From positions 744,001-808,000 of the forward strand of contig JAFCMP010000157.1 of the NCBI GenBank assembly GCA_017506865.1: a DNA stretch of 64,000 nt, in the 5' to 3' direction. Position 1 is the stretch's first letter. The number at the start of each line of letters is the position of its first letter. The notes beneath the pieces are model-generated. The model saw only the letters and a program-made list of their open reading frames with translations. It did no database searches and was not told the DNA's origin. The position numbers were made by a program, and so were the translations under genes. This document shows, piece by piece, positions 8,737 through 38,797 of this stretch. The stretch comes from Tribonema minus. Taxonomy: Eukaryota > Sar > Xanthophyceae > Tribonematales > Tribonemataceae.

Positions 8737-8749
8737 CAACTTCAACAAT

Positions 8750-9653
8750 GTCGACCATGTCGCCGCCGGAATTCCGCGAGACGCTGCGGCGCCACCTGGG
8801 CGTGGAGCGCCCCGCCTCCGCTGCGGCGCGGTGCCCCAAGTGTCATAAAATAGTGGAGTCAGGTGCCCACCTGCGCCGCTGCACACAAGGGCTCAACGTC
8901 ACGCGACACAACTTGCTCGCAGACGCGCTTTTTCAGCTGCTCAAGCAGGTGGCCCACCTCCGCGGTCTCGACCGGGACACCCTTGCCCCCTTCCGCCGCT
9001 ACGCGGCGCGCCACGGGTTCAACAAGTTCATGGACATCGTCTTCGGCAGCAACCAGATCTGCCTTCCAGTCCCTAAAGTGCAGCCGAGCGCTGACGCGGT
9101 AGCGGCAGGCCGGTGCACTAAACTGCGCGGCGGCTTTGAAGTAGCTTGTTGCATAGACGTCACCATACGTGACAGCTCATGTCCCTCCCGCCTCCATCAG
9201 GCTCAGGGGGGCGCGCGCGATGTGCAGCGCGTGCTTGAATCGGCTTCGCAGGAACAGATAGACACATACGTAGTCTCAGGGGCCCTGGACCTCACTACAC
9301 ACACCCTATTTTCCGCAGCCTTTGACCACTTCGGCGCTATGTCATGCGACACACAAGCACTGCTACACGCACTCGCCGAGCAGAGCTCGCAGGGCAGCTA
9401 CAATCTCGCGCAGCGCGTTGCCTTCTGGCGCCGCCGCACCTCCCTCGCGCTACAGCGCGCGCTCACACGTGTCGTGATCGACAACTGGAACGCAGTCATT
9501 GCCCCTGATGGCGACGTCAGTGCTTACCGCCGCATCGCACTGTTGCAAGTGCCGCGGCCCTCGCCGGCCAGCGCCGAACCGCCGGCCCCTCCGTAGATTT
9601 AGTTATTGCCCGATTATCGTGTGCTCAACCCATGCGGTCCAGGACATAATATA
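8750..9653 (+). mobile_element. 5'-truncated copy of the RLE-type LINE (C-terminal 0.9 kb)
   Basis: Plus-strand copy of the last part of the ORF2 seen at 15653–19819. It runs from the MSPPEFRET segment through the zinc motif (CPKCH…HLRRC) and the endonuclease-like segment (CCIDVTIRD) to the stop near 9594 and the short 3' UTR ending ATAATATAC at 9653. The reading frame is open. Flanking direct repeats CAACTTCAACAAT at 8737–8749 and 9654–9666 mark the target-site duplication. Differences from the other copies (HKIVESG for HRPVDSG, QID for KID, CLDL/DPT changes) make it an older insertion. Confidence 0.9.
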
Positions 9654-9666
9654 CAACTTCAACAAT

Positions 9667-10899
9667 CGAGTGAATGCGCGCGCTATTGCTCACTGTCTGT
9701 CCGCTGTTCAAAGCCCGAGTATGGCACAGTCTATGGGCAAATGCCCCCCCCAGCACTGTCGCATTGTGAAGTTGCACACGGTTTTATGATTGTCATGGTT
9801 GCGTTTATAGAGTGTGTGCGCCTGCTGTAGCTCGGGAGAGGACGCCAGGGGCGTCTGGGCCACATCAGCCTACGCCCCTGACACATCCCTAGCACATTAT
9901 GGCACAACATGTTGATCTTGGTTTGACAAAATTGCTGACCGCTGCAGTGCATGTATCGCGCGCCAGGTCTTGCAGATCCTGGGGGGTCCTTTGGCATCCT
10001 CTGTCTGCGTGCATGGCGTGCACGCAGTGCACCACCTTGAGCTACTGAACAACGTGCTCGCGCGTGCTGCTTTGCCTACCCCGCGACATCTCGCATGTGT
10101 ACAGTCACTGTGTGAAAACTTGGTGGTCAATGTGCAGCGCCCGCGAGTGGAACACCAAAGTAGTTAGACATAGCTTAACGCCTGTTCATTCATTGCGCGC
10201 TGCAGCTCAGCAGTTTTCAAGTGCGCACTGCAGCTCGGCCGCAGCGGTTTCCAGTGCTCTTCGTCATTTATATGGACCCATTTTGAGTGCAGCATGGCAG
10301 TGCTCAGCGCTCCTCGAAAGGTGAAGGTACATGTGAGGCAACTGGCTATAGCCATGCTTAGAGTCTGTCAACGGTGGAGAGTCCCCCCCCCCCCTCTCCC
10401 AAGCCGCCGAGTTTGTTGTGCACTGACGCAACTGAGTAACACAATTTGCAGTTGCCGCAGTGCTACAAAATGGAGCGGAACGCGTGCCATCGCTGTTGTG
10501 CGTCCATAAAAAGTAGCATGCGCCCTTGATATCACGTGTACTTTTATTATATTCCACTTGTGGCTGTGGAAATGCCATGTTGTAGGTGTGTCGCCTTGTT
10601 TTCACTCTTGGGTGTAGCATGCAAAGCTTGCACGCCGCACCCCGCCCCCCACATCACCCCCAACAAAGCACCCGCAAGCGACTGTCCCCCACATACTAGC
10701 AGGGATACTGAACAAAGCTACAAGACTCTCCCCCCACAGACAGACCCGTCTTAGGGCCACCCAGCTCCACGCAGACTCCATCTCAAAGTTTTCATGCAGG
10801 CCAAGGTCACCATAATGGGGCCTGAACTGGAGATTGTTGCTATCTACGTGAACCCCAATATCATAAAGATAAGCAGAGGGAGTCACTGGGCGCCTGGCG
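9667..10899. other. Intergenic DNA, no gene recognised
   Basis: Short overlapping ORFs only. No domain, no paralogous exon and no consistent splice sites. A C-run sits near 10382–10392. Confidence 0.4.
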
Positions 10900-11600
10900 C
10901 TGACGCAAGCGTGTACACAGCAGGCCTCGAGGGCGCGCCATAGCCGTCGCGAGCTCAGCAGACAGAGCAGATCTCGAGCGCACGTCATTCAATCATTCAA
11001 GTTGCAGTTGCGTGCCTGCTGGGCAGTGCAGAGCGCGCGCCATAGGCATCGCGCACCTGTTGAGTTGAGCAGACTCGGGGCAGAGCACGCGCCAGAGCCG
11101 TCACGCAGTCACCAAACCGTTTGACAGAGCAGAGCGCGCGTCATCGCCGCCGTGTGCCACAGTGCCCGCTGGGAGAGCTGCCTTAAACCTGGCTTTGTTG
11201 ACAGTGAAGGCTGCCCCCCCCCGAGCCAGGTTCATGCCACAGTGTGCCAACGGCACAACAGCGCAATGTTCGCAGTCGCCGCAGCGCTGCTGTCACTGCA
11301 TGTTGAGTGCCAACGCATCACTGCTGCAGCTGTTGGAAAAAGGTTGCACGCAGCTCCAATCATGCTTGTTGAGGTCGTGCCGTTCGGCCATGCACCATGA
11401 TGATCGTGCAACGGCACAACAGCGCCATGTTCGCAGTCGCCGCAGCGCTGCTGTCACTGCATGTTGAGTGCCAACGCATCACTGCTGCAGCTGTTGGAAA
11501 AAGGTTGCACGCAGCTCCAATCATGCTTGTTGAGGTCGTGCCGTTCGGCCATGCACCATGATGATCGCCTGCCATCCCAATGGCGCCAGGCAGGTGGGCG
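10900..11600. repeat. GC-rich repeat block related to the arrays at 33.8–35.6 and 39.0–40.7 kb
   Basis: It contains the recurring GAGCAGAGCGCGCGTCAT-type units. A longer block (GGGAGAGCTGCCTT… to …GGCCATGCACCATGATGATCG) also occurs near 35.30–35.57 kb and, inverted, near 39.1–39.4 kb. On the minus strand it includes the CMAERHDLNKH reading frame shared by those copies. Confidence 0.6.
11250..11571 (+). repeat. 161-bp direct tandem duplication
   Basis: Bases 11250–11410 and 11411–11571 are near-identical (first difference GCGCAATG versus GCGCCATG). Each unit runs from ACGGCACAAC to the CACCATGATGATCG region. It lies in a dispersed GC-rich repeat family and codes for nothing recognised. Confidence 0.85.
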
Positions 11601-12911
11601 TGCGCACAGCGCGCAGCAGCGTATGCATGCTGACGACGGCTGCGTGCGCAGAGATGCGCAGGTGCACAGCCGCATGGGCACTGGCAGCGATGCATGCGTG
11701 TTCGCGCCGCCGCCAAATCCCAAGGGTCATGGTCAGCGCTGAGCGTGCGCACCGTCTCCGCTCCGTGGGCTGCACATGTGCTGCTACCGCCGCACGTCGA
11801 GCGCGCTGTCAAGATGCCATCACCACAAACCGCATGTGCGCCGCCTCCGCTGATGCTGCGCGCCCCGTCACCACTCTGGTCGGTTTTGCACATATCGCAG
11901 CTGCCGTCCCCCTTATCCTTAGCACGGTCACAGTCACATGGTGCTTAAGCAATTGCCTTGCGGCCAACAGTGAACTGACTCTGTCCCTGCTGCTGCCAGT
12001 GCTGCCGTTATTGCTGCAGGCGCTACGGATGTGTCATGACCCGCATGGGCTCACATAGCTGCCGGGTTGCTGGCACTGATATCCGCATCATGAGCGTTGA
12101 CGGCTTCGTATAGCGATGCCAAACTATAGCCACAGTAACGATGAGCCATGCAGGTGCCAACACGCCTTTGCGTCTGCACGCACAGAAAGTGCAAGGTGGG
12201 GTGTGCAGGTTCACGGATTCGTTGATAAGGCTGATCTCACATGCTCAGAGAGAAGTGTTGTGTCGTTCCGCTTGCGAAGATAACAAGGCTGTGAACCGGC
12301 AAGCATCAGCGCAGTTTATGCCAGACGCGCTATGTGGACCAGGCCTGCGATTAAAGCCATGGATGCATCAATCCAATGTGGCACAACGGCCTTAAATAAA
12401 TGGAGGTGGGCTTTGCGCAGGCAGCCAAAACCACCATATGTCTGGTTAGATAAGATTCATACCTCTGCTAACCCAATTAGGTGAGCACGCTGTCAAGTCT
12501 CCGAAAAATCGACCATCAATCGCTCCAAGCTCATTCGCAAGGAGGATACTTGCTGCGCACCAGCATCACGTGTCAGCGCCTCGTGTATTGCGACTCGTAA
12601 AGCAATTGCTCAAACATGAGCTGTCCATCACATGCTGAAGCTCACCTCGACATATATGCAGCCATGAAGCAACGCAGGGGCAGGTTGCGTTGGGAGCAAC
12701 GCAGGGGCAGGTCGCGTTGGTTCATCGCTTGCAGGTTTGCGCCTGAAAAGGTGTTGGACTCTGCCAAGCAATTGCCACATGGGCACGCCTCGCGAAGCAG
12801 GTCCAACATTATAGCAGCAGAAGCTGCCATCGCCGGCCGCCTTGGCGTGGTCGCCGGCTCCACCTGCACCAGCAGAACACGCACGCACACACACACTTTA
12901 TTCCTGCACCA
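11601..12911. other. Intergenic DNA, no gene recognised
   Basis: Forward ORFs at 11.56–12.06 and 12.6–12.98 kb are Ala/Arg-rich with no domain. A small direct repeat (GCAACGCAGGGGCAGGT, twice) lies near 12.67–12.71 kb and a CA microsatellite near 12.88–12.90 kb, just before the LINE target site. Confidence 0.35.
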
Positions 12912-12924
12912 CTTCATTGAAGTT
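12912..12924 (-). repeat. Outer target-site duplication of the tandem LINE pair
   Basis: On the minus strand this reads AACTTCAATGAAG. The same 13 bases recur at 15577–15589 between the two LINE copies. The first ten (AACTTCAATG) recur at the 5' end of the full copy (21788–21779). Confidence 0.85.
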
Positions 12925-15580
12925 GTATATTATGTCCTGGACCGCATGGGCTGCGCGCACGATAAATCGGGCTTGCAATAACTAAATCTACGGAGGGGCC
13001 GGCGGTTCGGCGCTGGCCGGCGAGGGCCGCGGCACTTGCAACAGTGCGATGCGGCGGTAAGCGCTGACGTCGCCATCAGGGGCGATGACTGCGTTCCAGT
13101 TGTCGATCACGACACGTGTGAGCGCGCGCTGTAGCGCGAGGGAGGTGCGGCGGCGCCAGAAGGCAACGCGCTGCGCGAGATTGTAGCTGCCCTGCGAGCT
13201 CTGCTCGGCGAGTGCGTGTAGCAGCGCTTGGGTGTCGCGTGACATAGCGCCGAAGTGGTCAAAGGCTGCGGAAAATAGGGTGTGTGTAGTGGGGTCCAGG
13301 GCCCCTGAGACTACGTATGTGTCTATCTTTTCCTGCGAAGCCGATTCAAGCACGCGCTGCACATCGCGCGCGCCCCCCTGAGCCTGACGGAGGCGGGAGG
13401 GGCATGAGCTGTCACGTATGGTGACGTCTATGCAACAAGCTACTTCAAAGCCGCCGCGCAGTTTAGTGCACCGGCCTGCTGCTACCGCGTCGGCGCTCGG
13501 CTGCACTTTAGGGACTGGAAGGCAGACCTGGTTGCTGCCAAAGACGATGTCCATGAACTTGTTGAACCCGTGGCGCGCCGCGTAGCGGCGGAAGGGGGCA
13601 AGGGTGTCCCGGTCGAGACCGCGGAGGTGGGCCACCTGCTTGAGCAGCTGAAAGAGCGCGTCTGCGAGCAAGTTGTGTCGCGTGACGTTAAGCCCTTGTG
13701 TGCAGCGGCGCAGGTGGGCACCCGAGTCCACTGGTCTATGGCACTTGGGGCACCGCGCCGCAGCGGGGGCGGGGCGCTCCACGCCCAGGTGGCGCCGCAG
13801 CGTCTCGCGGAATTCCGGCGGGGACATGGTCTCCGCTGGGTCAGTGCTCGGCAATTGCGCCAAGAAACCCATGGCCCCCTTAGAGGCGCCGCTGCGCCAC
13901 GCCGCGACTGCTTCCAACGCATTTGCTGCTTCAAGCCGACGCAGCTGCGTGGCGGCGAGCGCTGCGTCTAGCACCCGTGATAGCGCCGCTTGACGCCGCG
14001 GCAGCACGGCGGCCGGCGGGGCCTGGGCAGAGCCTGGCTCGCGCGCCACCGCTGGCGCAGCAGCGCGGCGCGCGCCGGCGCGAGTCCGCATGCCCGGCCC
14101 CGCAGCTCCGCCTGCCCGTTGCAGCAGATCGCGCAGCGCCCGCCATGCGCCGTCGTCCTGGCGCCAGTCCTGGTACCAGACCGTGGGCAGGAGCAGTGCG
14201 AGGGCCGCTGCAGCCTCATCGCTGCCGCTGCGCAGCTGCTGCAGGCAGGTAGCTATCTGGGTGAAGGTGAAGCCATAGCGGGCATGCTCTAGGACGCGGC
14301 TGCGTGCCGCCACTGGAAATGCCGCCAGTGCCGGCCCCATGCACTCGAGGGAACGTGCAGCAAATGCGGCACATGCACGGGGCGCCGCGCCCAGCACGCC
14401 AAAGCCACCACTCCCCAGCCGCAGATGCACGCGTACCTGCTGATGTGCTGGTAGCGTCACTGGGGCCTCGCCACCCCAGTCGGCGCCGCGTACCCATGCC
14501 ACTGCCGCCGCCCACAGAGAGGGCGGCGCCGCCGCCGCCGAAACCGCCGGCGGGCCGCGGCAATCGTCACCCGCCGCCGGCGCGCGCTGGTGGGCCGGCG
14601 GCGTAAGACCCGCCGATGGCTCCTGCGCCAGCGCGGCCACGGCCGCTAGCGTGATGGCGTCGAAGCGCCGTAGCTCCTCGTGCGTGAGGGATGGCGCTGT
14701 ATTGCGCGATACATGCCCTGCGCGGGCGGGGACGGCAAGACGCAGAATGGAGAAGGCAGCCTGCACATCCTCCATCTGCACAAGCTCCGCAACCAGGCGG
14801 TCGGTGCCGGGGGCACGAAGGGTCGCCGCCACTTGCGCGCGCACGAAGCCCTCGGTGCCGACCGGCACCCCCATCAGCGTGATGCCGTCGTCACATACTG
14901 GTACGGGGACATTGGCGGCGGCAAAGACGGCGGCGGCGCGCTCGCGGGCGCCGCCTGAGGCCGGCACCAGCGCCGCGCATTTCGCGACGTTGACCTGAAT
15001 GTTGAGCTCGCTCAGCGCCTGTTGTATGAAGCAGAACGCGCGGCCAACGTGGCCGAGCACCGGCGCGTCACAGCTGGGCGTCATGATGGTGAGGTCATCG
15101 AGGTAGCCCGGAAGCGCCAGTTGCGGGAACTTGGCGCGGGCAGCCACCATGGTGCCGCGCAGTGCCAGCGCGAACAGCAGCGGCCCCAATGGGTCGCCCT
15201 GCTGCACGCCCTGTTGGGAGAGGATGATGGCGGCGTCGGCGTGCCCATCTAGGCCAAATTGCAGCCAAGGGGCCCGGCCGGGGCCGTAGATGTGCTCGAC
15301 GTAGCCGTACAGGCCAGGCAGATGCTCGGCCACCGCGGTGAGGACTGCCGAGCGCGACAGCGCGTTGAAGGCATTACTGCCGTCAATGGCAAGGAGCACG
15401 CCGCCGCACTCATGCGTGAGCTGCGCCATGAGCGCCACTCTCTCTGCGCCCCCCCGCGCGCCGACCCCAAACTGGCCAATTGGTTCCAGCAGCGCGGAGA
15501 CGCGGTCCCGGGTGTCCGTGCAGAAGGTGCGGGCGAACAGGCGGCGGATGGTGTCGCCGCACGCGATGGGGCGCGCCTTC
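12925..15580 (-). mobile_element. 5'-truncated RLE-type LINE copy (2.66 kb)
   Basis: Minus-strand copy, almost base-for-base the same as the 3' 2.6 kb of the neighbouring full element. It starts inside the RT domain, just before KARPIACGDT. Its 3' end is ATAATATAC followed by the target repeat. It was inserted into the 3' target-site duplication of the full copy, giving a head-to-tail pair. The few differences (for example G versus A near the ORF stop, GHVGRAF versus DHVGRAF) imply recent insertion. Confidence 0.92.
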
Positions 15581-15582
15581 AT
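12988..15582 (-). pseudogene. Truncated LINE ORF2 (RT C-terminal part, zinc motif, RLE)
   Basis: 864 codons, open throughout. It keeps the RT palm motifs (LAIDGSNAFN, GVQQGDPLGPLL, GYLDDLTIM), the zinc motif and the endonuclease-like region, but lacks the first ~525 residues of the full protein. Its ATG is made by the junction: AAT from the target repeat joined to G. That is a chance start, so this is called a truncated gene. It could still be translated as a partial RT. Confidence 0.85.
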
Positions 15583-15589
15583 TGAAGTT
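15577..15589 (-). repeat. Inner target-site duplication between the two LINE copies
   Basis: AACTTCAATGAAG on the minus strand. It serves as the 3' target repeat of the full copy and the 5' target repeat of the truncated copy. Confidence 0.85.
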
Positions 15590-18500
15590 GTATATTATGT
15601 CCTGGACCGCATGGGCTGCGCGCACGATAAATCGGGCTTGCAATAACTAAATCTACGGAGGAGCCGGCGGTTCGGCGCTGGCCGGCGAGGGCCGCGGCAC
15701 TTGCAACAGTGCGATGCGGCGGTAAGCGCTGACGTCGCCATCAGGGGCAATGACTGCGTTCCAGTTGTCGATCACGACACGTGTGAGCGCGCGCTGTAGC
15801 GCGAGGGAGGTGCGGCGGCGCCAGAAGGCAACGCGCTGCGCGAGATTGTAGCTGCCCTGCGAGCTCTGCTCGGCGAGTGCGTGTAGCAGCGCTTGGGTGT
15901 CGCGTGACATAGCGCCGAAGTGGTCAAAGGCTGCGGAAAATAGGGTGTGTGTAGTGGGGTCCAGGGCCCCTGAGACTACGTATGTGTCTATCTTTTCCTG
16001 CGAAGCCGATTCAAGCACGCGCTGCACATCGCGCGCGCCCCCCTGAGCCTGACGGAGGCGGGAGGGGCATGAGCTGTCACGTATGGTGACGTCTATGCAA
16101 CAAGCTACTTCAAAGCCGCCGCGCAGTTTAGTGCACCGGCCTGCTGCTACCGCGTCGGCGCTCGGCTGCACTTTAGGGACTGGAAGGCAGACCTGGTTGC
16201 TGCCAAAGACGATGTCCATGAACTTGTTGAACCCGTGGCGCGCCGCGTAGCGGCGGAAGGGGGCAAGGGTGTCCCGGTCGAGACCGCGGAGGTGGGCCAC
16301 CTGCTTGAGCAGCTGAAAGAGCGCGTCTGCGAGCAAGTTGTGTCGCGTGACGTTAAGCCCTTGTGTGCAGCGGCGCAGGTGGGCACCCGAGTCCACTGGT
16401 CTATGGCACTTGGGGCACCGCGCCGCAGCGGGGGCGGGGCGCTCCACGCCCAGGTGGCGCCGCAGCGTCTCGCGGAATTCCGGCGGGGACATGGTCTCCG
16501 CTGGGTCAGTGCTCGGCAATTGCGCCAAGAAACCCATGGCCCCCTTAGAGGCGCCGCTGCGCCACGCCGCGACTGCTTCCAACGCATTTGCTGCTTCAAG
16601 CCGACGCAGCTGCGTGGCGGCGAGCGCTGCGTCTAGCACCCGTGATAGCGCCGCTTGACGCCGCGGCAGCACGGCGGCCGGCGGGGCCTGGGCAGAGCCT
16701 GGCTCGCGCGCCACCGCTGGCGCAGCAGCGCGGCGCGCGCCGGCGCGAGTCCGCATGCCCGGCCCCGCAGCTCCGCCTGCCCGTTGCAGCAGATCGCGCA
16801 GCGCCCGCCATGCGCCGTCGTCCTGGCGCCAGTCCTGGTACCAGACCGTGGGCAGGAGCAGTGCGAGGGCCGCTGCAGCCTCATCGCTGCCGCTGCGCAG
16901 CTGCTGCAGGCAGGTAGCTATCTGGGTGAAGGTGAAGCCATAGCGGGCATGCTCTAGGACGCGGCTGCGTGCCGCGACTGGAAATGCCGCCAGTGCCGGC
17001 CCCATGCACTCGAGGGAACGTGCAGCAAATGCGGCACATGCACGGGGCGCCGCGCCCAGCACGCCAAAGCCACCACTCCCCAGCCGCAGATGCACGCGTA
17101 CCTGCTGATGTGCTGGTAGCGTCACTGGGGCCTCGCCACCCCAGTCGGCGCCGCGTACCCATGCCACTGCCGCCGCCCACAGAGAGGGCGGCGCCGCCGC
17201 CGCCGAAACCGCCGGCGGGCCGCGGCAATCGTCACCCGCCGCCGGCGCGCGCTGGTGGGCCGGCGGCGTAAGACCCGCCGATGGCTCCTGCGCCAGCGCG
17301 GCCACGGCCGCTAGCGTGATGGCGTCGAAGCGCCGTAGCTCCTCGTGCGTGAGGGATGGCGCTGTATTGCGCGAGACATGCCCTGCGCGGGCGGGGACGG
17401 CAAGACGCAGAATGGAGAAGGCAGCCTGCACATCCTCCATCTGCACAAGCTCCGCAACCAGGCGGTCGGTGCCGGGGGCACGAAGGGTCGCCGCCACTTG
17501 CGCGCGCACGAAGCCCTCGGTGCCGACCGGCACCCCCATCAGCGTGATGCCGTCGTCACATACTGGTACGGGGACATTGGCGGCGGCAAAGACGGCGGCG
17601 GCGCGCTCGCGGGCGCCGCCTGAGGCCGGCACCACCGCCGCGCATTTCGTGACGTTGACCTGAATGTTGAGCTCGCTCAGCGCCTGTTGTATGAAGCAGA
17701 ACGCGCGGCCAACGTGGTCGAGCACCGGCGCGTCACAGCTGGGCGTCATGATGGTGAGGTCATCGAGGTAGCCCGGAAGCGCCAGTTGCGGGAACTTGGC
17801 GCGGGCAGCCACCATGGTGCCGCGCAGTGCCAGCGCGAACAGCAGCGGCCCCAATGGGTCGCCCTGCTGCACGCCCTGTTGGGAGAGGATGATGGCGGCG
17901 TCGGCGTGCCCATCTAGGCCAAATTGTAGCCAAGGGGCCCGGCCGGGGCCGTAGATGTGCTCGACGTAGCCGTACAGGCCAGGCAGATGCTCGGCCACCG
18001 CGGTGAGGACTGCCGAGCGCGACAGCGCGTTGAAGGCATTACTGCCGTCAATGGCAAGGAGCACGCCGCCGCACTCATGCGTGAGCTGCGCCATGAGCGC
18101 CACTCTCTCTGCGCCCCCCCGCGCGCCGACCCCAAACTGGCCAATTGGTTCCAGCAGCGCGGAGACGCGGTCCCGGGTGTCCGTGCAGAAGGTGCGGGCG
18201 AACAGGCGGCGGATGGTGTCGCCGCACGCGATGGGGCGCGCCTTCTCGCCCACAGCGCTGAGGCGCGCGGCCGCGTGAAGGCGCCAAAAGGGGGCGGGCA
18301 GCGCGGCGGGGGTGGAGTACACCGCGGTACCCAGCCACGCCAGCAGCTCAAGGAGCCAGTCAACCGTGCGCCCCGACGTGTGCGCCGTGTGCCGGACGCA
18401 CTGCTGGAGGTGGGAGTTGCGCAGCCCAGAGGGACCGGCGGCCGAGCCAGGGTTGGCGGCGAGGATGGCCTCGCGTAGCCCGTCCGCCGTGAATGAAGCG

Positions 18501-21500
18501 CAGTTGAGTGGTGCCGGCGCCGCCAGCGCCGCCGCCGCCACCAAGCTGCGCGCCCGCGATGCCGCGGCATCCAGCTTCGCAGACGCATCGCCAGCTGGGT
18601 GTTTAGCCTGCAGTTTATGCAAGGTAGCAGAGTCGCGGGGGGCAGATGTGTCAGCACCCTCCGCCAGCAGCCGCGCGGCGCGCCCGACGCCGCCCGGCTG
18701 CCGCGCCGTCGCCGCCGCGCGTTCCCGCACTGCCGCCGCCGCCTCCGTCATAGACCTAGCGCGGCGCGTGCACGCACGGGCGGCGCCGCGGCGGCAGAAG
18801 GCCAGCGCTGTGCGCGTGAGCAGGTCCAGGTCGCCTGCCACGAAGGCCGCAAAACGGTGCGCCCGCGGCAGGGAGCCGTCGGGTACAAGCAGCAGGCACG
18901 GCAGCAGATGCAGCAGCTTGCACCATGCACCGGCTGTGGCGGACGCCTGTGCCGCTGCCTCAACCCCGTGTGCCTGCGCTACCGCCGTCTGCGCTTCCCG
19001 GAGGCCCGCCAGCGTGGCCGTCAAGGCGGCTGTGAAGTCCGAGCGGTGCTCCAGGCGAATGCGGCGGCCGACCACCAGTTGCTGCTGCAGAACATAGTCA
19101 AAGGAGAGGTCGTCAAGCGCTGCGCGCGCGGGCGAGAGCGGCGCCAGCGTCCAGAGCGGAAGCGCGCTGCGCCATGTTGGCCCTGCCGCAGCCACAGCGG
19201 CAGCTGCGCGGGCGCCGGGGCCGCGCGCGCCGCCGCTGGCTGTAGAGAGGGGGAGGATGGGGGGCAGAGGCGCGACGCGGGGCCCGTGTGGCCGCTGCGT
19301 TGCGGCCGCCCCCCGGGACTTGTACAGGTGGTCGCGCTGGTGCAATTTCGTGCGCACGCACCCTGGCTCGCCGCACGAGGCGCATGCGCAGAGTAGCAGC
19401 TCGGGTTCCACGGCGTAGTAGGTGCCCGCGCCGGCTCGGTGGAGAGTCAAACACTCATCGTCGACCGCCTGCATACGCGCGAGAAAGTCGGCAGGCACAT
19501 TCGGATGCTCGCGGCGCTGGTGATCCGCCAGCGTCGTGGCGATGCGGCGCGCCAGCGCCAGCGACGCCGACGTCTGCGCCGTGAGCGTGTTCGCCTCCCC
19601 GTTCCGGCGGAGGCGCGGTTTGGGCACTGGCACCCGAAAGAGGCAGCCAGTGTCATATAAAGGGCAGCGCGGATAGATGGCAGCTGTTGCAGGCTGAGCG
19701 GGCGCCTGCACTGCCTCAGGCTGCGCAGGGTCTATGCCCGCCGCGGCAGCCGCTGCTGCAGCAGCAGCTGCCGCAATGGCCGCCGGTGCGGCTCCCCCTG
19801 AAGTAGAGTCAGACATCATTACGGTGGATGAGGGGAGCGCCGCACCGGCGGCTTACAGGCCCGAGGCGCCGCCGCCTCCCTCCGATGCCGGCGGCTGGGC
19901 CGTCGAGGTGGAGAGGAAGCGGTCGGCGGCGGACTGACCTTGGGGCAGCCCGCGCGCGGGGCGTGCAGCGGGGGGTTCCGCCGCCGAGCCCGGCGTGCGC
20001 TCAGCAGCCGTGCGCTTGCGGCTGGCGCGGGGTGTGCCACTGTCGGACATAAGCGCGCTGCTGTCACTGGCAGGCATGGGGGGCTGCCTACTGCGCGAGG
20101 GGGAGGCGCTGCAGTCGCTGCCGTGCCGAGCCGCTGGCGACGATGCGCGCCGACACCGCGAGCGCCCGCGTGAGCAAGAGCGCGGCGGCTGCCGCGGCGC
20201 CGCCGCTGCCTCCAGTGCCACCGCGGGGTCCGCTGCCGCGCTTGCGGCCGCTGCCGCTGCCGCGCTGGCAGCGCCTACAGCAGGCGGCGGCGCGCCCGCC
20301 GCCGCCGCGCCTGCCGCCGCCGCGCCCGCCGCCGTTGCCCCGTCCGCCGCCACCGCCGCCGCAGCGCCAGCCGCTGCAGAGCTAGCCTCAAGGTCTCCCG
20401 CCACGGGCGTGGTGGCCACCGCGCCGGCGGCGTCCGCCGCCGGCACCGCCACGCTCGCAGCGCGCGCCGCTTCCGCTGTCAGCTGCGCCTCGAGTCGAGC
20501 GGTCGCCGCAGCGTTGCGCACCTGCTCTCCTTCGCGCAGGCTCCGTTGCTGCGCCGCCAGCCGCTCCGCACGAACTTGCTCTGCCAGAGACCGGTCGCGA
20601 TCGGCCTCAGCAGCCCGCTTTCCCGCCTCGGAGGCTGCCAGCAGCTTTGTCAGTGCCTTGACCTGCTGCTGCAGCCCCTTCCGCGCGGTCCTCCCCTCCA
20701 GGATGCCCCCCTGCAGCTGCTGAATGCGCTGCTCCTGGCCCAGCTGCGCAGGGTCCGCGTCGGCCGCCGGCGGCGGCGGCGAGGCGCCCGGCGACGCGCT
20801 CGCCAGCGCGGGCGTCGAGGCGGCGGCAGCGTCCGTCGCGGCGGCGCCGGTCGCCGCCGGCGCTGGGGGGTGCGAGGCGGCGGCGCCGGTGGGCGCACGC
20901 TGCGTCGCGGCGGCTGCCGCCGCGGCGGCTGCAGCCGTGGCTACCGCAGGGGCACCGGCGGCTGTGCCAGTGGCGGCGGCTGGCGTGGTGCAGGCCGCGG
21001 GGAGCGTGGTGTGCGCGCAGCGCGTTGCCCGGCACTGCTGACCCGGGCGCGTGAAGTGCCGTCGCAAGCAGGACGGGCACGCTGTCAGATTGTCAGGGCC
21101 CAGCAGCCGCAGCGCTACTTCCGTGCCGTCCACCGCGCATAGGACCGAGTGCGCGAGTCGCCGCGCAACGCCGCGGACCACTGTTAGCTCCCAAACACCC
21201 GCGGCGCCTGGCGATGCCGCCGACGCCGGCGCCGCGGATGAGGCCGCACCGTTAATGCCTACGCCGCAGGTCTTCAGAGCGCTGGCCAGCAGCAGAAAGG
21301 CGGCGGAAGTGCCGCCGCCGCCCGCCCGCAAGCGCACCGGCGCGATGGGCATGCCAGGAGCTGCGAGTGCGGGCGCAAGCAGCATTGCAAGCTGCGCTGC
21401 AGACCACGCCGCCGGCGCGCCGCGCACGGTGACCGTGACCGGGGCGCTCATGTCACCAGCGCGGGTGATGCGCAGGCGGAAGCCGCTGAAGCTGAAGTCA

Positions 21501-21779
21501 GCGGAGTCGCCGACCGTTCCGAGCGCCGCGTCAACGAGCGCGGCCGGCGCCCGCAAGCATAGCGTGCGGAAGTCATCGCGAGGCGACAGAGGCCCCAGCG
21601 TCTCTGCACCCTTGAATAGGGACGCAAGTGAGGCAGCGTCTCCAGCGCCGGCCCTCGCCGCGTCGTGCATGTGCGTGAGCGCCGCCGCTAGCAGCTGCTG
21701 GCGCCCCCGCGTGAGTCGGGCGCGGCGCTGTGCAGCCGCCGCAGGGGTGCTGCGCTCGCGCTCGTGAGGCTGACGGGCC
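15590..21779 (-). mobile_element. Apparently full-length RLE-type non-LTR retrotransposon (6.2 kb)
   Basis: Two intact minus-strand ORFs (ORF1 21781–19853, ORF2 19819–15653) 33 bases apart, a ~63-base 3' UTR ending ATAATATAC, no poly-A tail and target repeats on both sides. A C-terminal zinc motif plus endonuclease-like domain after the RT, no AP endonuclease seen at the N-terminus and a constant insertion site place it with the early-branching RLE LINEs (R2/NeSL/CRE/HERO type). I cannot assign the clade. There is no 5' UTR, because ORF1 starts at the junction, so a longer true element cannot be excluded. Being intact and near-identical to its neighbour, it may be active. Confidence 0.88.
15653..19819 (-). 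CDS. LINE ORF2: reverse transcriptase with restriction-like endonuclease
   Basis: 1388 residues. It would make cDNA from the element RNA at a nicked target (target-primed reverse transcription). The N-terminal ~520 residues include a Cys/His cluster (CACASCGEPGC…KLHQRDH, ~165–190) and an SAAGPSGLRNSHLQ segment typical of the RT 0/1 region. The palm follows: KARPIACGDT (~526), the catalytic Asp in LAIDGSNAFN (~591), GVQQGDPLGPLL (~650) and YLDD (~684–687). The C-terminus has a CPKCHRPVDSGAHLRRC zinc motif (~1135–1151) and an endonuclease-like segment with CCIDVTIRD (~1240). The length is normal for RLE LINEs and there are no stops or frameshifts. ORF1 lies 33 bases upstream. Confidence 0.9.
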   Translation of the reverse strand: MMSDSTSGGAAPAAIAAAAAAAAAAAAGIDPAQPEAVQAPAQPATAAIYPRCPLYDTGCLFRVPVPKPRLRRNGEANTLTAQTSASLALARRIATTLADHQRREHPNVPADFLARMQAVDDECLTLHRAGAGTYYAVEPELLLCACASCGEPGCVRTKLHQRDHLYKSRGAAATQRPHGPRVAPLPPILPLSTASGGARGPGARAAAAVAAAGPTWRSALPLWTLAPLSPARAALDDLSFDYVLQQQLVVGRRIRLEHRSDFTAALTATLAGLREAQTAVAQAHGVEAAAQASATAGAWCKLLHLLPCLLLVPDGSLPRAHRFAAFVAGDLDLLTRTALAFCRRGAARACTRRARSMTEAAAAVRERAAATARQPGGVGRAARLLAEGADTSAPRDSATLHKLQAKHPAGDASAKLDAAASRARSLVAAAALAAPAPLNCASFTADGLREAILAANPGSAAGPSGLRNSHLQQCVRHTAHTSGRTVDWLLELLAWLGTAVYSTPAALPAPFWRLHAAARLSAVGEKARPIACGDTIRRLFARTFCTDTRDRVSALLEPIGQFGVGARGGAERVALMAQLTHECGGVLLAIDGSNAFNALSRSAVLTAVAEHLPGLYGYVEHIYGPGRAPWLQFGLDGHADAAIILSQQGVQQGDPLGPLLFALALRGTMVAARAKFPQLALPGYLDDLTIMTPSCDAPVLDHVGRAFCFIQQALSELNIQVNVTKCAAVVPASGGARERAAAVFAAANVPVPVCDDGITLMGVPVGTEGFVRAQVAATLRAPGTDRLVAELVQMEDVQAAFSILRLAVPARAGHVSRNTAPSLTHEELRRFDAITLAAVAALAQEPSAGLTPPAHQRAPAAGDDCRGPPAVSAAAAPPSLWAAAVAWVRGADWGGEAPVTLPAHQQVRVHLRLGSGGFGVLGAAPRACAAFAARSLECMGPALAAFPVAARSRVLEHARYGFTFTQIATCLQQLRSGSDEAAAALALLLPTVWYQDWRQDDGAWRALRDLLQRAGGAAGPGMRTRAGARRAAAPAVAREPGSAQAPPAAVLPRRQAALSRVLDAALAATQLRRLEAANALEAVAAWRSGASKGAMGFLAQLPSTDPAETMSPPEFRETLRRHLGVERPAPAAARCPKCHRPVDSGAHLRRCTQGLNVTRHNLLADALFQLLKQVAHLRGLDRDTLAPFRRYAARHGFNKFMDIVFGSNQVCLPVPKVQPSADAVAAGRCTKLRGGFEVACCIDVTIRDSSCPSRLRQAQGGARDVQRVLESASQEKIDTYVVSGALDPTTHTLFSAAFDHFGAMSRDTQALLHALAEQSSQGSYNLAQRVAFWRRRTSLALQRALTRVVIDNWNAVIAPDGDVSAYRRIALLQVPRPSPASAEPPAPP

Positions 21780-21781
21780 AT
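19853..21781 (-). CDS. LINE ORF1: zinc-motif and coiled-coil protein
   Basis: 642 residues, Ala-rich, the probable RNA-binding partner of ORF2. An N-terminal basic region is followed by a possible RRM-like or unknown fold (~70–230), a Cys motif (CPSCLRRHFTRPGQQC, ~235–250), a long poly-Ala linker, a Gln/Arg/Glu-rich stretch with coiled-coil character (~345–445) and a Ser/Arg-rich tail. No match to a named family is claimed. The first ATG (21781–21779) straddles the insertion junction: AT comes from the target repeat and G from the element. The next in-frame Met is ~38 residues in. Either ORF1 depends on landing at AAT, or the element is slightly 5'-truncated and the true ORF is longer. Confidence 0.75.
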   Translation of the reverse strand: MARQPHERERSTPAAAAQRRARLTRGRQQLLAAALTHMHDAARAGAGDAASLASLFKGAETLGPLSPRDDFRTLCLRAPAALVDAALGTVGDSADFSFSGFRLRITRAGDMSAPVTVTVRGAPAAWSAAQLAMLLAPALAAPGMPIAPVRLRAGGGGTSAAFLLLASALKTCGVGINGAASSAAPASAASPGAAGVWELTVVRGVARRLAHSVLCAVDGTEVALRLLGPDNLTACPSCLRRHFTRPGQQCRATRCAHTTLPAACTTPAAATGTAAGAPAVATAAAAAAAAAATQRAPTGAAASHPPAPAATGAAATDAAAASTPALASASPGASPPPPAADADPAQLGQEQRIQQLQGGILEGRTARKGLQQQVKALTKLLAASEAGKRAAEADRDRSLAEQVRAERLAAQQRSLREGEQVRNAAATARLEAQLTAEAARAASVAVPAADAAGAVATTPVAGDLEASSAAAGAAAAVAADGATAAGAAAAGAAAAGAPPPAVGAASAAAAAAASAAADPAVALEAAAAPRQPPRSCSRGRSRCRRASSPAARHGSDCSASPSRSRQPPMPASDSSALMSDSGTPRASRKRTAAERTPGSAAEPPAARPARGLPQGQSAADRFLSTSTAQPPASEGGGGASGL

Positions 21782-21875
21782 TGAAGTTCAAGTTGGCCAA
21801 AACTGTTCACTTGGGGATGACTGATCCCTTGACCGATCATACCCATTTTGACTGATCCCATTGACTGGTCGTACC

Positions 21876-22386: not shown

Positions 22387-25300
22387 ATGACGGGAGCTGG
22401 CGCAGTCGTTATCGAAGGTGAGGTGGCTCATCACTTTGTTGTGTGCGTCATCGTCTGTCTTGGAGACAAACGCTCTATCGCTGCCGTAGAGGTGCGTGCT
22501 GTGCTTGTTGACTCACATGTAAATTCACCTCAGACAGTAGGCTTCAGGCTAGCGAGTCCACGGGCGCACCTTCAAGCGTACAACAGGTCCTAAGCCTTTG
22601 CCGCTTCTGCTTGTTGACTTGACGTACTGTACTGTACTGAGTTTACAAAGATGGTGCCTGCGTGCCAAATGCATGCAACCTAGATCAATTCATGTTGCCT
22701 ACGTGTCAAATGAGTTGATCATGATCATCATGTCTCCATATAATCCGATCTGCGACGCTGATAAACAGAGTAGATTATACTTTGTACGCAGTGTTGAAGG
22801 CCTTGCTAGGTCGTGTTGTTCTCGGTTCTCACATACCGTAGCAGAATGCTGGCTCTGCATGCGTAAGCATGCACACCGTAGAGGTGGTTGTCGTCAATGT
22901 TCTGTATGGCATGACTGTTTGTTCAACACAGTGATAAGTTTCCATCATACATGCCAGTTCAGTCCTCTTGCCCGACCACAAGTGCATATATAGAGGCTGC
23001 TTTGTGTGTCAGTACACCAGTCAGTAACAGGTGCAGTTACGTTCTGCCCAGCAACAATTAGAAATCGTTGTGTGCGTGTGGCTGCTTCAGGCACCTTAAA
23101 GTTTTGCTACCTGAATTGTGTCACGGTCAGTTTATCCGGTAGCATTGTAGTCACACATACTGGAGCATTTTTGTTCATCACTGCGCCGCCGCATTCGTAC
23201 CAAGGGACAGTGTCAGGCTGCTATAGTGGTGCGGGTCACACGAGCTAAGATTTTTTAATGTTCACTCCGCCTCTTAATGTACCTTTTGTTCACTCCGCCA
23301 CTTTCATAACCGCCTCGCAGGCTATGTGCTACCTCAGGAGCTTCATCATCTGCGGCACATCCAGGCGTTCATCATGTCGTTCCTGCAGTGGTTCACAGGG
23401 GAGCGTGGCTACTGGGTTAAGCCTAACAGGTATGCGCGCACTGCATCCAACTTCCTTGACTTTGTCAACATGTCTATTGTCGTGAACTCAAACGTGACGG
23501 ACCACTGTGTGGGCTCAGTGGCTACTGGGACACGGCATCATCATCAACAATTCTCTCGGCCATGTGCACTTCTTCCTAGCAGCGGTGTTCTGTTGTCTAC
23601 CATGACCCCCTTTTTTGTGTGTCACTCCTCTCGCTGCGCGCTTCGCAGCAGCCCCCAGATTGCGCCATATACTCAACGGCATAGCGCAGCTGCCTAATTG
23701 GTCACTAAGTGTGCTACTGCCATGCGCTGTTCACTATGATGTTTATTGCTTTGCAGTTGCCATTGGCAAGCAATGTGTGAGCCTGAGCAATGCCGTATGC
23801 CGAGGCATACGCGGCTGCGGTCACCAGCATCTGATTCATAGTTTGCCACATGTGACGTGCCTCACATTGCTCCTGCACTTTCGTAAATGCAGTATGGCAC
23901 TTGATCAACAATGCGCTTATGCTGGCGTGCGCTGCGCATACGTGCACTACACCGCTTTGCACGTGTAGGCATCACCTGCTTCAACTTGAAGTTTGCTGTT
24001 TGCGTCCCCCACTCAACTGCGCGATGCGCCGCACCTGCTGCGCAGCGAACTGCTGAATCATTAACGCGGTTGCATCAATGCTTGCGTGCGCTGCGCAGTC
24101 GTGAGCCGCGGTGGGGCATCATCATAACTGATGGCCACGCGGAGGTGGCTGCGATTGGCAAACTGCGGGGGCGCAGGCCTTCACGTCCCAAGAGCTTTAT
24201 ACGCAGTCTTGAGAAGCACGGCTTTGAGAGGTGAGGGTGAACATCAACTTTCTTTGGGGATGAACTTGAAGTTGATTTGGGGATGAACTTGAAGTTGACA
24301 CAAATGCACCGCAACTCTCTGTGTTCGCAATCTCGAGGGAGCATGGTCTGGAGCGGAGACTGAAGGGTGTGATGCGCAGTCCGCTTAAAACTCTGTGTCT
24401 GTAGTCTCGATGGAGCATGGTCTCTGAAGGGTGGAACTTTGCAGTTGGGTGTTGTGTACTTCAGGAGCGTTGTCAAATATTTGTGGCAAGAAACCGCCAC
24501 ACCTGCCGCACTATCTGGTGCTTCGGTGCTGTTGTCACAGGGTTCACAACAGACAGAAATCAGGCCACATGTGATGCACCCCAATGCTGATGATGCTGCT
24601 GCCATGTTCAGATTTGCGCTTTTGATGAAGCAGTCTACAGTACGGTCTCCCAAGCACTGCCTTGGGGCATGTGCAGTTGATGCAGTGTATGTACGACACG
24701 CTGTCTTGCAGACAGCAGGAGTGTTGAGTGCTGTTGAGCGCTGTCCTGCAACCTCACGAACTCACAACGCTGCCGCAGTGATTGTTACTTTAGTACATTA
24801 ATAACAGAGACTGCACGTATGCTTCGCCTGTGTTTCTTGAGCACTTCAAGACATACGTGAGCTAGACGAACTGGACACAGTGCACCTGTCGATACCCCTC
24901 TTCGTACCTGCGACTACCCTCCCCCCCCCCCCGGCCCCCCTTCTTTGCAATATGAGCAAGCAATGCTGTGCTCAACCCCTCTTCATGCTCTCGTTGCGTA
25001 TGTCCAGGCACGATGGCGAACCTGACATCTGGTATCACGACATTCTCAGCCCCCACTGCGATGCGCGCAACATGCCGCGCCGCCCGCGCGACACCGGCAG
25101 GAAGTTCGCCGAGCGCCCGCGCTTCCGCCGCGGCCAGCCCCAGAAGCGCGCGGCGGCAGCAGCACGCACCACCTCCTCTGCACTTCCCGCCGCGGCTGCC
25201 GCCACTGCCGCCGTTGCTTTCGCCGCTGAGGCTGAGAACAGCGTGCATGTCGCCACCACGCCGCGACGGAGCGGCCGGCAGGCAAGGCCGCGCGCAGCTC

Positions 25301-28798: not shown

Positions 28799-29036
28799 GT
28801 GAGTGCTGCTTGTCCATCTCGCCGTGAAACACTGCCGGAGTTGCGCTCTGCGCTTTTCTGCACAGCCTTACTGAGGCGGTGCATAATATGTTGTTGTTGC
28901 CGCTCATATCATCGTGCTCATGGTGTTCATTGCGCAATAGCAACGTTGTACGTGCGATTGCGACGACGCTGGACTGACAACACACACACTCCACCTGCCT
29001 TCCCACAGTGCGGACGCATTTCGTCAGTGAGATTCG

Positions 29037-35712: not shown

Positions 35713-35786
35713 TAACGTCTACACGATGCCCATAGCAACATCCTCGCCAGATCGCCGACTTGAAGTTCTAACTTCGCGTGCTCCAG

Positions 35787-35911
35787 CACGATGATGTCAG
35801 CTGGGAGGGCAGCGGCTCGGAGGAACGGTCAGAATATCAGCCAGCGGCGCTGCGGAACAGGACCCTTGCGTCAAGATGAGCCCGGAGGAACTGGCGCAGC
35901 TTCAGCAGCAG
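35787..35911 (+). pseudogene. Exon-like remnant, left copy (MSPEELAQLQQQ)
   Basis: After a CTCCAG acceptor, DDVSWEGSGSEERSEYQPAA reads open. A 5-base net insertion then shifts the frame before DPCVKMSPEELAQLQQQ|GT. The same exon lies inverted at 36930–37045. The gene family is not recognised. The Glu/Gln-rich helix could belong to a nuclear or scaffold protein. Confidence 0.5.
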
Positions 35912-36929
35912 GTTGCCTGTAACAGTTGCGCTTGGTCAGTGGTGCCGCGACCTGAGCGTGGAGGCAGTGACACGGATGTCTACATGTGAGACGACCTGCT
36001 GTCATACATCTGCTGGAGGTTGTACGTGGCGATGGTGTCATCTGGCGGGGGGGGGAGAGGGGGATCGGGGCAAGGACGACGCTGTTTGGTGGCCTGACAA
36101 GCCTTGAGTCGTGCAGACAGACACACGCCATCTGCAGCCTGTTTGAAGACAATGCATCCCCCTTTCCCCCCCCTTGTAACCCTCATCATAAATGATGGAA
36201 TAACACTCCCAAATCAGATGTGTGACTTGACATCATGGAACTGAGCAGGTGATGTTCATGGTGAGGGTCATAAACCTCAAGAGTTGCTGAGATTGCCAAG
36301 TGCGTTGAGCATTAGCACACAAAGGTGAAGTAATGATCCGGCCCGGGGATTCAAAGCCATGGTCAGGTGAAAACAACTCACGCTGCAGCTGCAGCACAAT
36401 GACACACTGTTTCATGGGCGTGCGACTGTCTCAGCGGCTTGCTGATGGGTCCTTTCAGTGCGTGATCGGTTGTGTTACAGGGAAGTCTAGGGGCAGAGGA
36501 GTACAACGAGGTAGCGTCACATTACGTCAGCACAGCTTTGTGAGATCCGCCCGCTTTCTGCCACCACTTCGTGCTGCGACGGCCTCTGTGACAGGCCAAC
36601 CCCCTAAAAATGGAGAATGCAGTGACTCTGCTGTCTCGGACAATAAGTCAAGTTGGGTCTGATATTAAACCAGGTCCGCTGATTTCGATAGCCACGGGCT
36701 GCAGGAAGGACAGCACAGTCGTCACTGAAATACAAAGGTGTATGCAAGGTGGCATGCCACTGTCTAACAACTCTTATACGTCAATGACTGAGGGGCCAAA
36801 GCTGATGACGTGGCAAGGGCACGATGCGCCTGATTGGATGTGGAGAGCAGAGACGCCATCCCGAGCATTCACAGCTGTCAATACAGCAGCACAAGCTTTG
36901 TGTGGCAGTAAGACTGACACACTGCTCAC
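35912..36929. other. Centre of the palindrome; no gene
   Basis: About 1 kb between the two inverted exon remnants. ORFs on both strands have no domain. A G9 run lies near 36047–36055. Confidence 0.4.
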
Positions 36930-37045
36930 CTGCTGCTGATGCTGTGCCAGTTCCTGCGGGGTCATTTTGCGGCAAGGATCCTCTGCTGCCGCGGGCTGAT
37001 ATTCTGACCGTTCCTCCGAGCTGCTGCCCTTCTAGCTGACAGCCT
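36930..37045 (-). pseudogene. Exon-like remnant, right copy (MTPQELAQHQQQ)
   Basis: On the minus strand this is the inverted partner of 35787–35911, ending at a GTGAGC donor. SSSEERSEYQPAAAEDPCR and KMTPQELAQHQQQ are in one frame here. The Trp codon of the left copy (TGG, in VSWEG) is TAG here. The two copies thus carry different single lesions. Confidence 0.5.
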
Positions 37046-37313
37046 CGCTCTGCTATCACCTGCGAGGGCACGCCCAGCCACCTTGAACGGCGCCCAGGAG
37101 CACATTGCTGCTGCTGTTGGAACGCTGCTACAATGAGCATTGCAAGGGGGGGGGGGGGAGGCAACGACAAGCAGACTGAGATGCTGAATGATCCACAACA
37201 CAAGACACAACGTGCATGGCGCTGGCGGTGTGATGCACATTGGATTTGACCTCGCTGACAGACTGACGCCGTGCCGGTGCCAAGCAGAGGCCGGTTGAGA
37301 GGGTGGTGCGGTG

Positions 37314-37639
37314 CACACCTTAGACGACGGAGCAACGTAGACGACGGAGTCGCGACGGCCCGTCGCGGCAGCCCTGGTGAAAAGTGCCATAGCTAACTTC
37401 AACAACATATTCAACTCAGTCGACGGTTTGCGACGGTCTGTTGCTGTTGTAGCTTGGGATTACTGTCGTCTGCACGACTCCGTCGACCTGCCGCTGCTCG
37501 ATGTACTGTTGCCGTTGTCAGCACCGTCGCGCACGGTCACACCAAAGCCTGTCGTATCTACGACTCCGTCGTTACGCCTTGGTCAGATTGGCTGTCGTGC
37601 TGGTCGACTCCGTCACGACGGACCGTCGTCTAAGGTGTG
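37314..37639. mobile_element. hAT-like MITE (326 bp)
   Basis: Perfect 17-base terminal inverted repeats (CACACCTTAGACGACGG… and its complement) are flanked by the 8-base direct repeat GTGCGGTG (37306–37313 and 37640–37647). The interior is packed with GACGGAGTCG/CGACTCCGTC motifs in both orientations, probably transposase-binding sites. No coding capacity. The 8-base duplication suggests hAT-type mobilisation; the end sequence is not the usual YAGGG, so the superfamily is provisional. Confidence 0.8.
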
Positions 37640-37647
37640 GTGCGGTG

Positions 37648-38656
37648 TAAAGAGCCATCACAAAGGACATTGGCGCCACACGAGCACCACCTCACATTTT
37701 GGGCCAGTGGCTTGGTGATGCAAAGGCACATGTTGCCAGGGCCTTGTCGTGCAAGTAAATTATCTCCATGTGACACTCACAGGTCAATTCACATAATGCA
37801 CTGAACTTGTTGTTTACGCAATGTTAGTGAAACAAAGGGGATTGTCAATTGATGGTTGTCATAAGTCACAGAGAGGTGATTTAATCAGCAGACGGCATGC
37901 AGCGAGCATCCGTGCTGGTGATTGGTGACTTGCGGGTTGCAATAATTGGAGAAGCGAAAGGTGATGCTGATTGGGAAAGCTGCTGGCAGGACGGGCCTGC
38001 GCGCATCAATGAAGAGGTGTCACTACAGCTCCATTTACGCAGCACCATCGAGTGTTTGTAAAACATCACGGACTCAACCCTTTCCGCGTCTTTATTTAAA
38101 GTGACGAGGACACTGCGCAGGTGTCGGTCATGCTGGCACGAGCAAAACCACAGCCTTGTATAAGCAGCCACGACAGCATCAACGTTGGGTTGCGGCAGTA
38201 TCGGATATGGGTGGTAGCTAACTATGCCAGAACCTCCTAGACGTTGCAAGTCAGTCGGTTACGGCTCCAACAGCTATGAACAGCATCCAACCCAGTTTGT
38301 TTCAGTGGACGGCTTCTCTCTCTCAGGCATTTCAAGGCGCAGACCTCGTCCGATATGCAACTTGTGTCCAATCGCGCTTCGCTTTCTAGAGCAAGTCAGC
38401 CACTCAGCCTCTACTCGCTGCCTGGGTTGGGGCTTGCTTGGGTTGGGGCTTGCTTGCCCCTCATGGAGGGGGAACACAGCACAGCCCACGCTTGCGTGTG
38501 AAGGCCAGGCTCTTCGTGATTCTATCCTCTGCACTTGCCCCCTCATTGTCGCTGGCGTCTTTGATGCCGTGGAGGGTGCTCGGCGTCGGAGTGAAGAACC
38601 TCGATAAGCAAACTGTCGTGCCAAGCTGTGTGATGAGGTTGAACTTCAAGTGCGTC
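37648..38656. other. DNA specific to the right arm; no gene recognised
   Basis: It has no counterpart in the left arm. Forward ORF 38224–38607 and the overlapping reverse ORFs have no domain or splice support. A local duplication (GGGTTGGGGCTTGCTT, twice) lies at 38.42–38.46 kb. Confidence 0.35.
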
Positions 38657-38667
38657 AGCCTGAAGTT

Positions 38668-38704
38668 GTATATTATGTCCTGTACCGCATGGGTTGAGCA
38701 CGAT
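38668..38704 (-). mobile_element. 37-bp remnant of the LINE 3' end with target repeats
   Basis: The minus strand reads from ATCGTGCTCAACCCATGCGG to the 3' end ATAATATAC, matching the 3' tail of the copy at 8750–9653 best (CTCAACCCATGCGG). It is flanked by AGCCTGAAGTT at 38657–38667 and 38705–38715 (AACTTCAGGCT on the minus strand). This is an extreme 5' truncation. Confidence 0.85.
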
Positions 38705-38797
38705 AGCCTGAAGTTCGATCCCACAAAAGCGAGGTCAACGCAGAGGACGCGGCCGATGGATGCAACTGGCTCTGTATAAGAGCAGCCTTGTCGTAAC

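Follow-up and report, generated by a model that had tools for sequence, protein, structure and literature searches.

A probable restriction-like-endonuclease LINE of Tribonema minus inserts mostly beside the dispersed seven-base word AACTTCA

We analysed a 64,000-nt window of the Tribonema minus genome (GenBank assembly GCA_017506865.1, contig JAFCMP010000157.1, positions 744,001 to 808,000 of the forward strand; the window is this whole stretch, part of a 158.18-Mb assembly of 554 contigs) that carries four insertions of one long interspersed nuclear element (LINE). A Rubisco large-subunit fragment elsewhere in the genome (L169) is closest to a set of PDB Rubiscos (6ftl, 5mz2, 1bwv and others) from diatoms and the red alga Galdieria; by this match the host is probably an alga whose plastid is of the red type, although the fragment may come from a contaminant. 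All four copies of the element end in ATAATATAC and are followed directly by AACTTCA (Table 1). This common 3′ junction, first noticed in a prediction made from the window's letters, was borne out: the junction pattern ATAATATACAACTTCA occurs exactly four times in the window, still four times when two mismatches are allowed, and not once in 100 dinucleotide shuffles. The original prediction also counted four independent events; there are indeed four insertions, but only three target sites are involved, since two of the copies, with ends at 12925 and 15590, stand head to tail around one AACTTCAATGAAG. The perfect 10–13-base target duplications that it described were found (AACTTCAACAAT, AACTTCAATGAAG, AACTTCAATG and AACTTCAGGCT), although only nine bases of AACTTCAATGAAG are unambiguous, its last four (GAAG) also fitting the element sequence; AACTTCAACAAT becomes 13 bases if the C common to the element end is included. 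The longest copy contains two open reading frames (ORFs), and the ATG near the start of its ORF1 falls within the target duplication. It is still truncated at its 5′ end, given that the same upstream continuation was present in all 31 other copies read there (30 regions from the best 40 scored matches, which include the window copy itself, and the full-length copy L030).

Table 1 Element copies, junctions and target duplications in the window (positions count from its first letter; UTR, untranslated region)
Feature	Position	Strand	Details
Junction matches of ATAATATACAACTTCA	9646-9661; 12918-12933; 15583-15598; 38661-38676	+; -; -; -	Exact pattern search
Left target duplication of 905-bp copy	8738..8749	+	AACTTCAACAAT
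LINE copy, 905 bp, 5′-truncated	8750..9654	+	Subfamily B tail; end of ORF2 and 58-nt 3′ UTR ending ATAATATAC
Right target duplication of 905-bp copy	9655..9666	+	AACTTCAACAAT; core 9655-9661
3′-side target duplication of 2652-bp copy	12912..12924	-	AACTTCAATGAAG; core 12918-12924
LINE copy, 2652 bp, 5′-truncated	12925..15576	-	Open frame of 868 aa
5′ duplication of 2652-bp copy and 3′ flank of 6189-bp copy	15577..15589	-	AACTTCAATGAAG; core 15583-15589
LINE copy, 6189 bp, still 5′-truncated	15590..21778	-	
ORF2 of 6189-bp copy	15653..19852	-	1399 codons, stop to stop; RVT_1 (best stretch 596-741), C-terminal CCHC knuckle and restriction-like endonuclease-like motifs
ORF1 of 6189-bp copy	19853..21787	-	644 codons, 5′ end cut off, Ala-rich
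5′ target duplication of 6189-bp copy	21779..21788	-	AACTTCAATG; pair 15580-15589/21779-21788
3′-side target duplication of 37-bp remnant	38657..38667	-	AACTTCAGGCT; core 38661-38667
Remnant, 37 bp	38668..38704	-	Last bases of the element only
5′-side target duplication of 37-bp remnant	38705..38715	-	AACTTCAGGCT

The same junction recurs throughout the genome, with 332 matches to ATAATATACAACTTCA (reversed pattern, 0) and 400 places for the 13-base tail GGACATAATATAC alone (control, 0). The first 100 of these tail places, each with an exact 13-base tail, were read as 30 loci, 68 stretches and 2 places within a neighbour's stretch, and the 102 readings gave 100 unique 60-base flanks. Junctions lacking AACTTCA were the outcome that would have spoken against the original prediction; 96 of the 100 keep the word with at most one mismatch (76 exact, 20 with one), three have two mismatches and one has four (L021), the last not being an element, as the rest of the tail is absent there. 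The junction alignment and logo that the prediction had proposed place the information at positions 1–7 (1.4–2.2 bits each; position 8, 0.67 bits; later positions, ≤0.2 bits). A second, separate set of 30 loci came from a search with the last 70 bases of the element; the tail was readable in 28, and 24 of these had exact AACTTCA (L050, L052, L059 and L060 deviate). Pooling all fetched loci gave 127 unique junctions, in which the core was exact in 44/52 copies of tail subfamily A, 17/21 of B and 15/18 of C (short or other tails, 22/36); the target word is common to the three subfamilies.

As the original prediction had proposed, the word belongs to the target and not to the element: deviant cores are repeated on the two flanks of a single insert, and at paralogous sites without the element the core is present once. 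Each of the deviant cores CACTTCAACATC, AACTTCGGG, AACTTCCCCCTAT, AACCTCAACCTTC and AACCTCAAG is duplicated and alike on both sides of its own insert (loci L010, L060, L091, L101 and L118). For empty sites, the genome was searched with 10 joined sites of 23 built, and the best 40 of 80 candidates were scored. Among 41 joined-site matches, 39 span the L024 site at 84–95% identity, one spans the L010 site and one is partial; the other eight joined sites had no empty-site match among those listed from these best 40 of 80. These empty sites are paralogous copies in which the target word is present once: 10 of the 11 L024-type sites that were read contain AACTTCAAGTC once and the eleventh (L178) contains AACTTTAAGTC (AACTTTA), whereas the L010 site has one CACTTCAACATC followed by 9 extra bases. 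The 5′ end of the element lay beyond the fetched stretch in 81 of the 127 junctions and was resolved in 46, of which 23 have a perfect duplication of 8–13 bases and 2 one of 7 bases. Near-full-length copies behave similarly—12 stretches were fetched, the element start was found in 11 (none in L192), and duplications of 8–13 bases flank 6 of these and of 7 bases a further 2. At the other extreme are three tail-only inserts, each with a perfect duplication (L007, 13 bp, and L118, 12 bp, both with 9-bp duplications; L166, 24 bp), in which copying halted after one or two dozen bases.

To quantify stringency, we compared the 100 insertions with the words available in 160 kb of element-masked host sequence. 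Insertions and background words numbered 76 and 69 for the exact core, 20 and 561 for one mismatch, 3 and 3,971 for two, 0 and 17,921 for three, and 1 (the non-element L021) and 51,504 for four; per site, the exact core was thus used about 31 times as often as one-mismatch words and about 1,450 times as often as two-mismatch words. Past the core, base frequencies largely match those of the background (A at position 8 is 0.68 in insertions versus 0.67, and C or G at position 9 is 0.75 versus 0.80), which gives no clear indication that selection extends beyond seven bases on the 3′ side. On the 5′ side, C precedes the word in 13 of 26 duplicated sites (background, 0.53). Strict, dispersed seven-base targeting, mostly beside AACTTCA, by a probable restriction-like endonuclease (RLE) LINE is real. 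A coding-frame idea, prompted by some targets that resemble Asn-Phe codons, was discarded: for 110 junctions with no copy of the element in the 99-nt flank, more than one frame is open, with counts of 38, 23 and 48 for the three forward frames.

The duplication leaves AACTTCA on both sides of an insertion, and therefore the site is usable again, which yields head-to-tail copies. The same element lies ≤120 nt downstream in 11 of the 100 junctions, mostly ≤25 nt away (L029, 33 nt); two of these 11 form the ends of a single inverted pair (L085). AACTTCAATGAAG is common to the 2652-bp and 6189-bp copies of the window, either of which may be the older. L036 represents a second insertion, at the position that L024 occupies in the same dispersed repeat, and L084 and L111 share one flank but have different tails. 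No Rfam match was found for the L024/L036 host repeat (two copies searched), the L010 empty site or the L084 and L111 flanks, and no tRNA was found in L170–L172. Two further observations concern these places: at L085 (C35:1330264-1330756), two copies stand 3′ end to 3′ end, with AACTTCA and AACTTTG on opposite strands within 17 bases; and L171–L181 represent a dispersed repeat that is at least about 200 bp long, contains AAGACCGGGG units and has no fewer than 39 similar places.

Full-length copies measure about 6.9 kb, judging from the spacing of tandem tails, and most near-full-length copies start with ACAAAACGTTTCTGGGTGGATTTTGCTG (the start is shifted inwards by a few bases in L182 and L193 and by about 40 bases in L184; L030 and L120 differ). 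An Ala-rich ORF1 precedes an ORF2 of 1399 codons. In Pfam searches up to E = 1, ORF2 matched only RVT_1 (E = 1.4e-8), with no zinc finger, Myb or apurinic/apyrimidinic endonuclease (APE) domain, and ORF1 matched nothing (644 codons of the window copy and 499 codons from the 5′ end of L030); NCBIfam gave only a weak group II intron reverse transcriptase match (E = 0.015), far below its cut-off. When compared with solved structures, the reverse transcriptase was closest to R2 retrotransposon proteins (E = 3e-4 and 4e-4), the sole ones below E = 0.001, and by these matches it is R2-like. Downstream, inspection by eye of the C-terminal piece (in its own numbering) revealed C82-X2-C85-X8-H94-X3-C98, R106-H107, A168-D169, D190 and K223-IDT-Y227. 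Excerpts of PMC5678591 give as the RLE LINE set a CCHC knuckle, CX2-3CX7-8HX4C, after the reverse transcriptase, followed by RH, PD..D and KX2KY; on the basis of the motif order CCHC, RHN, D, D, KxxTY, the endonuclease is most likely restriction-like. The original prediction of an RLE LINE stands for a LINE with an R2-like reverse transcriptase; the restriction-like part of the name is a probable assignment by motif order. No A-run terminates the element in the four window copies (genome junctions were selected by the ATAATATAC tail). No relatives were found in viral_contigs; z-scores of −0.14, 1.25 and 0.21 over three stretches gave no support for a 3′ UTR hairpin, and a search of L030 for a 5′ ribozyme gave no Rfam match up to E = 1. 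The best 120 of 645 candidate copies were scored at the C-terminal domain, which picks the most alike copies; in these, the domain is 99–100% identical and free of internal stops, and activity is recent because, by eye, the exact 1399-codon frame of ORF2 is unbroken in 64 of the 120. Individual copies vary: the 905-bp window copy has Q at the position of the catalytic lysine K223 (EQIDTY versus EKIDTY), and one copy (G000:C507:596097-597101) has a 2270-codon open frame, as if ORF1 and ORF2 were fused.

We consider it very likely that the element is a two-ORF LINE, active in recent times, which uses target-primed reverse transcription to insert at dispersed AACTTCA words. The target word and its stringency, the duplications, the empty sites and the recent activity are demonstrated here, whereas the identity of the domain that reads the word, the order of the cuts and target-primed synthesis itself are inferred. 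The endonuclease, most likely restriction-like, would nick the TGAAGTT-reading strand directly after that word, a position suggested by the fixed 3′ junction, and the freed 3′ end would prime reverse transcription of the element RNA, beginning at its last base (...AUAAUAUAC). Cutting of the other strand, mostly 7 to 13 bases further on, would generate the duplications, frequent early halts in copying would account for the 5′ truncations, and the AACTTCA left on both sides would allow renewed use of the site and head-to-tail copies.

Several observations weigh against this interpretation. The knuckle, CX2CX8HX3C, is one residue short at its end, the catalytic motifs lack the P of PD (AD instead) and the less conserved second K, and the RLE-like domain alone has no significant sequence match and no Pfam model. 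No perfect duplication of at least 7 bases flanks 21 of the 46 resolved 5′ ends (the non-element L021 included), nor is there a duplication at 3 of the 11 near-full-length ends (L187, L189 and L191); deletions, template jumps or decay may explain their absence. The 100 junctions are the first of the 400 by contig order, a non-random draw that needs the exact 13-base tail, and the background counts come from 160 kb of the window and the surroundings of insertions. Past the core, the frequency of T may differ between insertions and background at position 11 (0.36 versus 0.47) and position 16 (0.34 versus 0.18; 76 and 60 sites).

The strongest competing explanation is that specificity lies mainly in pairing between RNA and primer: read-through transcripts ending ...AACUUCA (RNA end, AUAUACAACUUCA) would anneal to the nicked TGAAGTT, and the address would be inherited with the transcript. 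The word follows most source copies, conservation is strongest at the junction and fades at positions 7–8, and the commonest internal variant, AACCTCA (4 of the 20 one-mismatch junctions), would keep a G–U pair with AACUUCA. Yet 3 of the same 20 differ at position 1, the primer end, where pairing should be least tolerant of a mismatch (8 differ at position 7), and a correctly placed nick would still be required; we regard this explanation as rather unlikely.

AACTTCA is also the beginning of a host word. Together with its complement, AACTTCAA ranks first among 65,460 non-simple-repeat 8-mers in the 160 kb of host DNA, and it occurs at 68,503 sites genome-wide as against 4,362 expected from an order-2 Markov model of the 160 kb, an excess of about 16-fold. 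As AACTTCAA is its own reversal, a reversed-pattern control is void; ACATACTA, a control of identical composition, has 3,040 sites against 2,344 expected (its reversal, 5,335). The octamer belongs to the 11-base word AACTTCAAGTT, of which the next three 8-mers and their complements are also windows. Examples of AACTTCA in the window lie on the − strand at 24290, 30568 and 45304. Long open frames were no richer at 46 background sites than at 125 random places. The excess might be a product of this and older elements that duplicated their targets, since each insertion with a duplication adds one word, but this is improbable: the 400 exact-tail copies with two words each explain at most about 1.2% of the 68,503 sites, and the background with elements masked still has 46 sites against 4.4 expected. 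Decayed element tails were likewise rejected as the source, since 62 of 99 contexts lack an exact tail and, among these, no upstream tail recurs apart from a few that closely resemble that of the element. Tentatively, and with less than even confidence, we suggest that the LINE takes as its address the start of the host's most over-used non-repetitive word (AACTTCAA within AACTTCAAGTT), a dispersed motif that would have its own function, possibly at promoters. As a lead only, excerpts of PMC10031896 report the motif AACTTCAAC from an oomycete, Plasmopara halstedii, in which it lies upstream of genes that are expressed together. If this suggestion is true, LINE targeting would include one more strategy in addition to the use of multicopy genes, of tandem repeats and of nearly random sites: the address would be a word found all over the genome, at tens of thousands of places, which every insertion renews. 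If the word is functional, the element would also serve as a natural probe of that motif.

The remaining alternatives fare worse. A non-RLE LINE, for example an APE-type element like L1, could be proposed as the maker of the insertions, given that RLE was assigned by motif and that two ORFs are typical of APE LINEs (excerpts of PMC5678591); however, the Pfam results for both ORFs (the ORF1 start of L030 included), the reverse transcriptase matches to R2 structures, the order RH..D..D..KxxxY downstream of the knuckle and the 3′ ends without an A-run in all four window copies make this quite unlikely. Spread by segmental or tandem duplication, with the flank reflecting common descent of one insertion, finds some footing in the neighbouring copies at 11 of 100 junctions, but it is refuted for the dispersed copies by their 100 different flanks (the two repeats in 102 readings are one pair read twice), by differing post-core bases and truncation points, and by duplications that match each site, leaving it only a very slight chance. 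That AACTTCA is the element's own 3′ end, as its presence after the element in 76 of 100 junctions might suggest, is practically excluded by the word upstream of the 5′ end, the variants alike on both sides and the single-copy empty sites.

RLE LINEs are known mostly either as strict elements with a single multicopy target or as dispersed ones of loose specificity. The Tribonema family seems to combine strictness with dispersal, and its target is no longer than a restriction enzyme's. It resembles R2 in its reverse transcriptase matches, a candidate knuckle and RH motif downstream, the fixed 3′ junction and the variable 5′ end; however, R2 occupies one site in 28S ribosomal DNA, whereas the 100 different flanks show no such insertion and the seven-base word is present at tens of thousands of places. 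Two-ORF members exist in CRE/SLACS. L1 also makes dispersed insertions at a short consensus; it has an APE endonuclease, a poly-A tail and a loose TTTT/AA consensus. Dong targets (TAA)n. R2 has one ORF, in contrast to the two of the Tribonema element (excerpts of PMC5678591). Some HERO families and Togen, the latter at (TG)n, are, in excerpts of PMC4640811, RLE LINEs that target short repeated words. The target of HERO, Dong and Togen is a tandem array, unlike the single dispersed words used here. R2NS (PMC5035012) and BLAG (PMC7650587) are described as R2-like RLE LINEs dispersed in the genome without site specificity, and the passages on them report no target word. EhLINE1/EhSINE1 of Entamoeba have an RLE-type endonuclease, dispersed insertions and a short preferred word, GTATT, at the nick (excerpts of PMC3118788). 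The dispersed heptamer of the original prediction stands, but its view of a short dispersed core as a different strategy is tempered by this precedent; the passages on EhLINE1 concern nicking hot spots in vitro and a five-base preference, whereas the Tribonema element has the exact heptamer in 76 of 100 genomic junctions. Among the titles and abstract openings listed from the open-licence literature, a scope outside which Repbase reports and most subscription journals fall, there was neither the Tribonema element nor an RLE LINE with a dispersed heptamer target. Because natural insertions number in the hundreds, and empty sites as well as unbroken, nearly identical copies are available, the family makes two questions testable: how a LINE reads a seven-base word, and whether it is the protein or the RNA tail that reads it.

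Two other duplications were observed in the window. A 161-nt unit is duplicated in tandem at 11248-11569 (98% identical), and direct 300-nt copies with 100% identity lie at 40951-41250 and 48706-49005, 7,755 bases apart.

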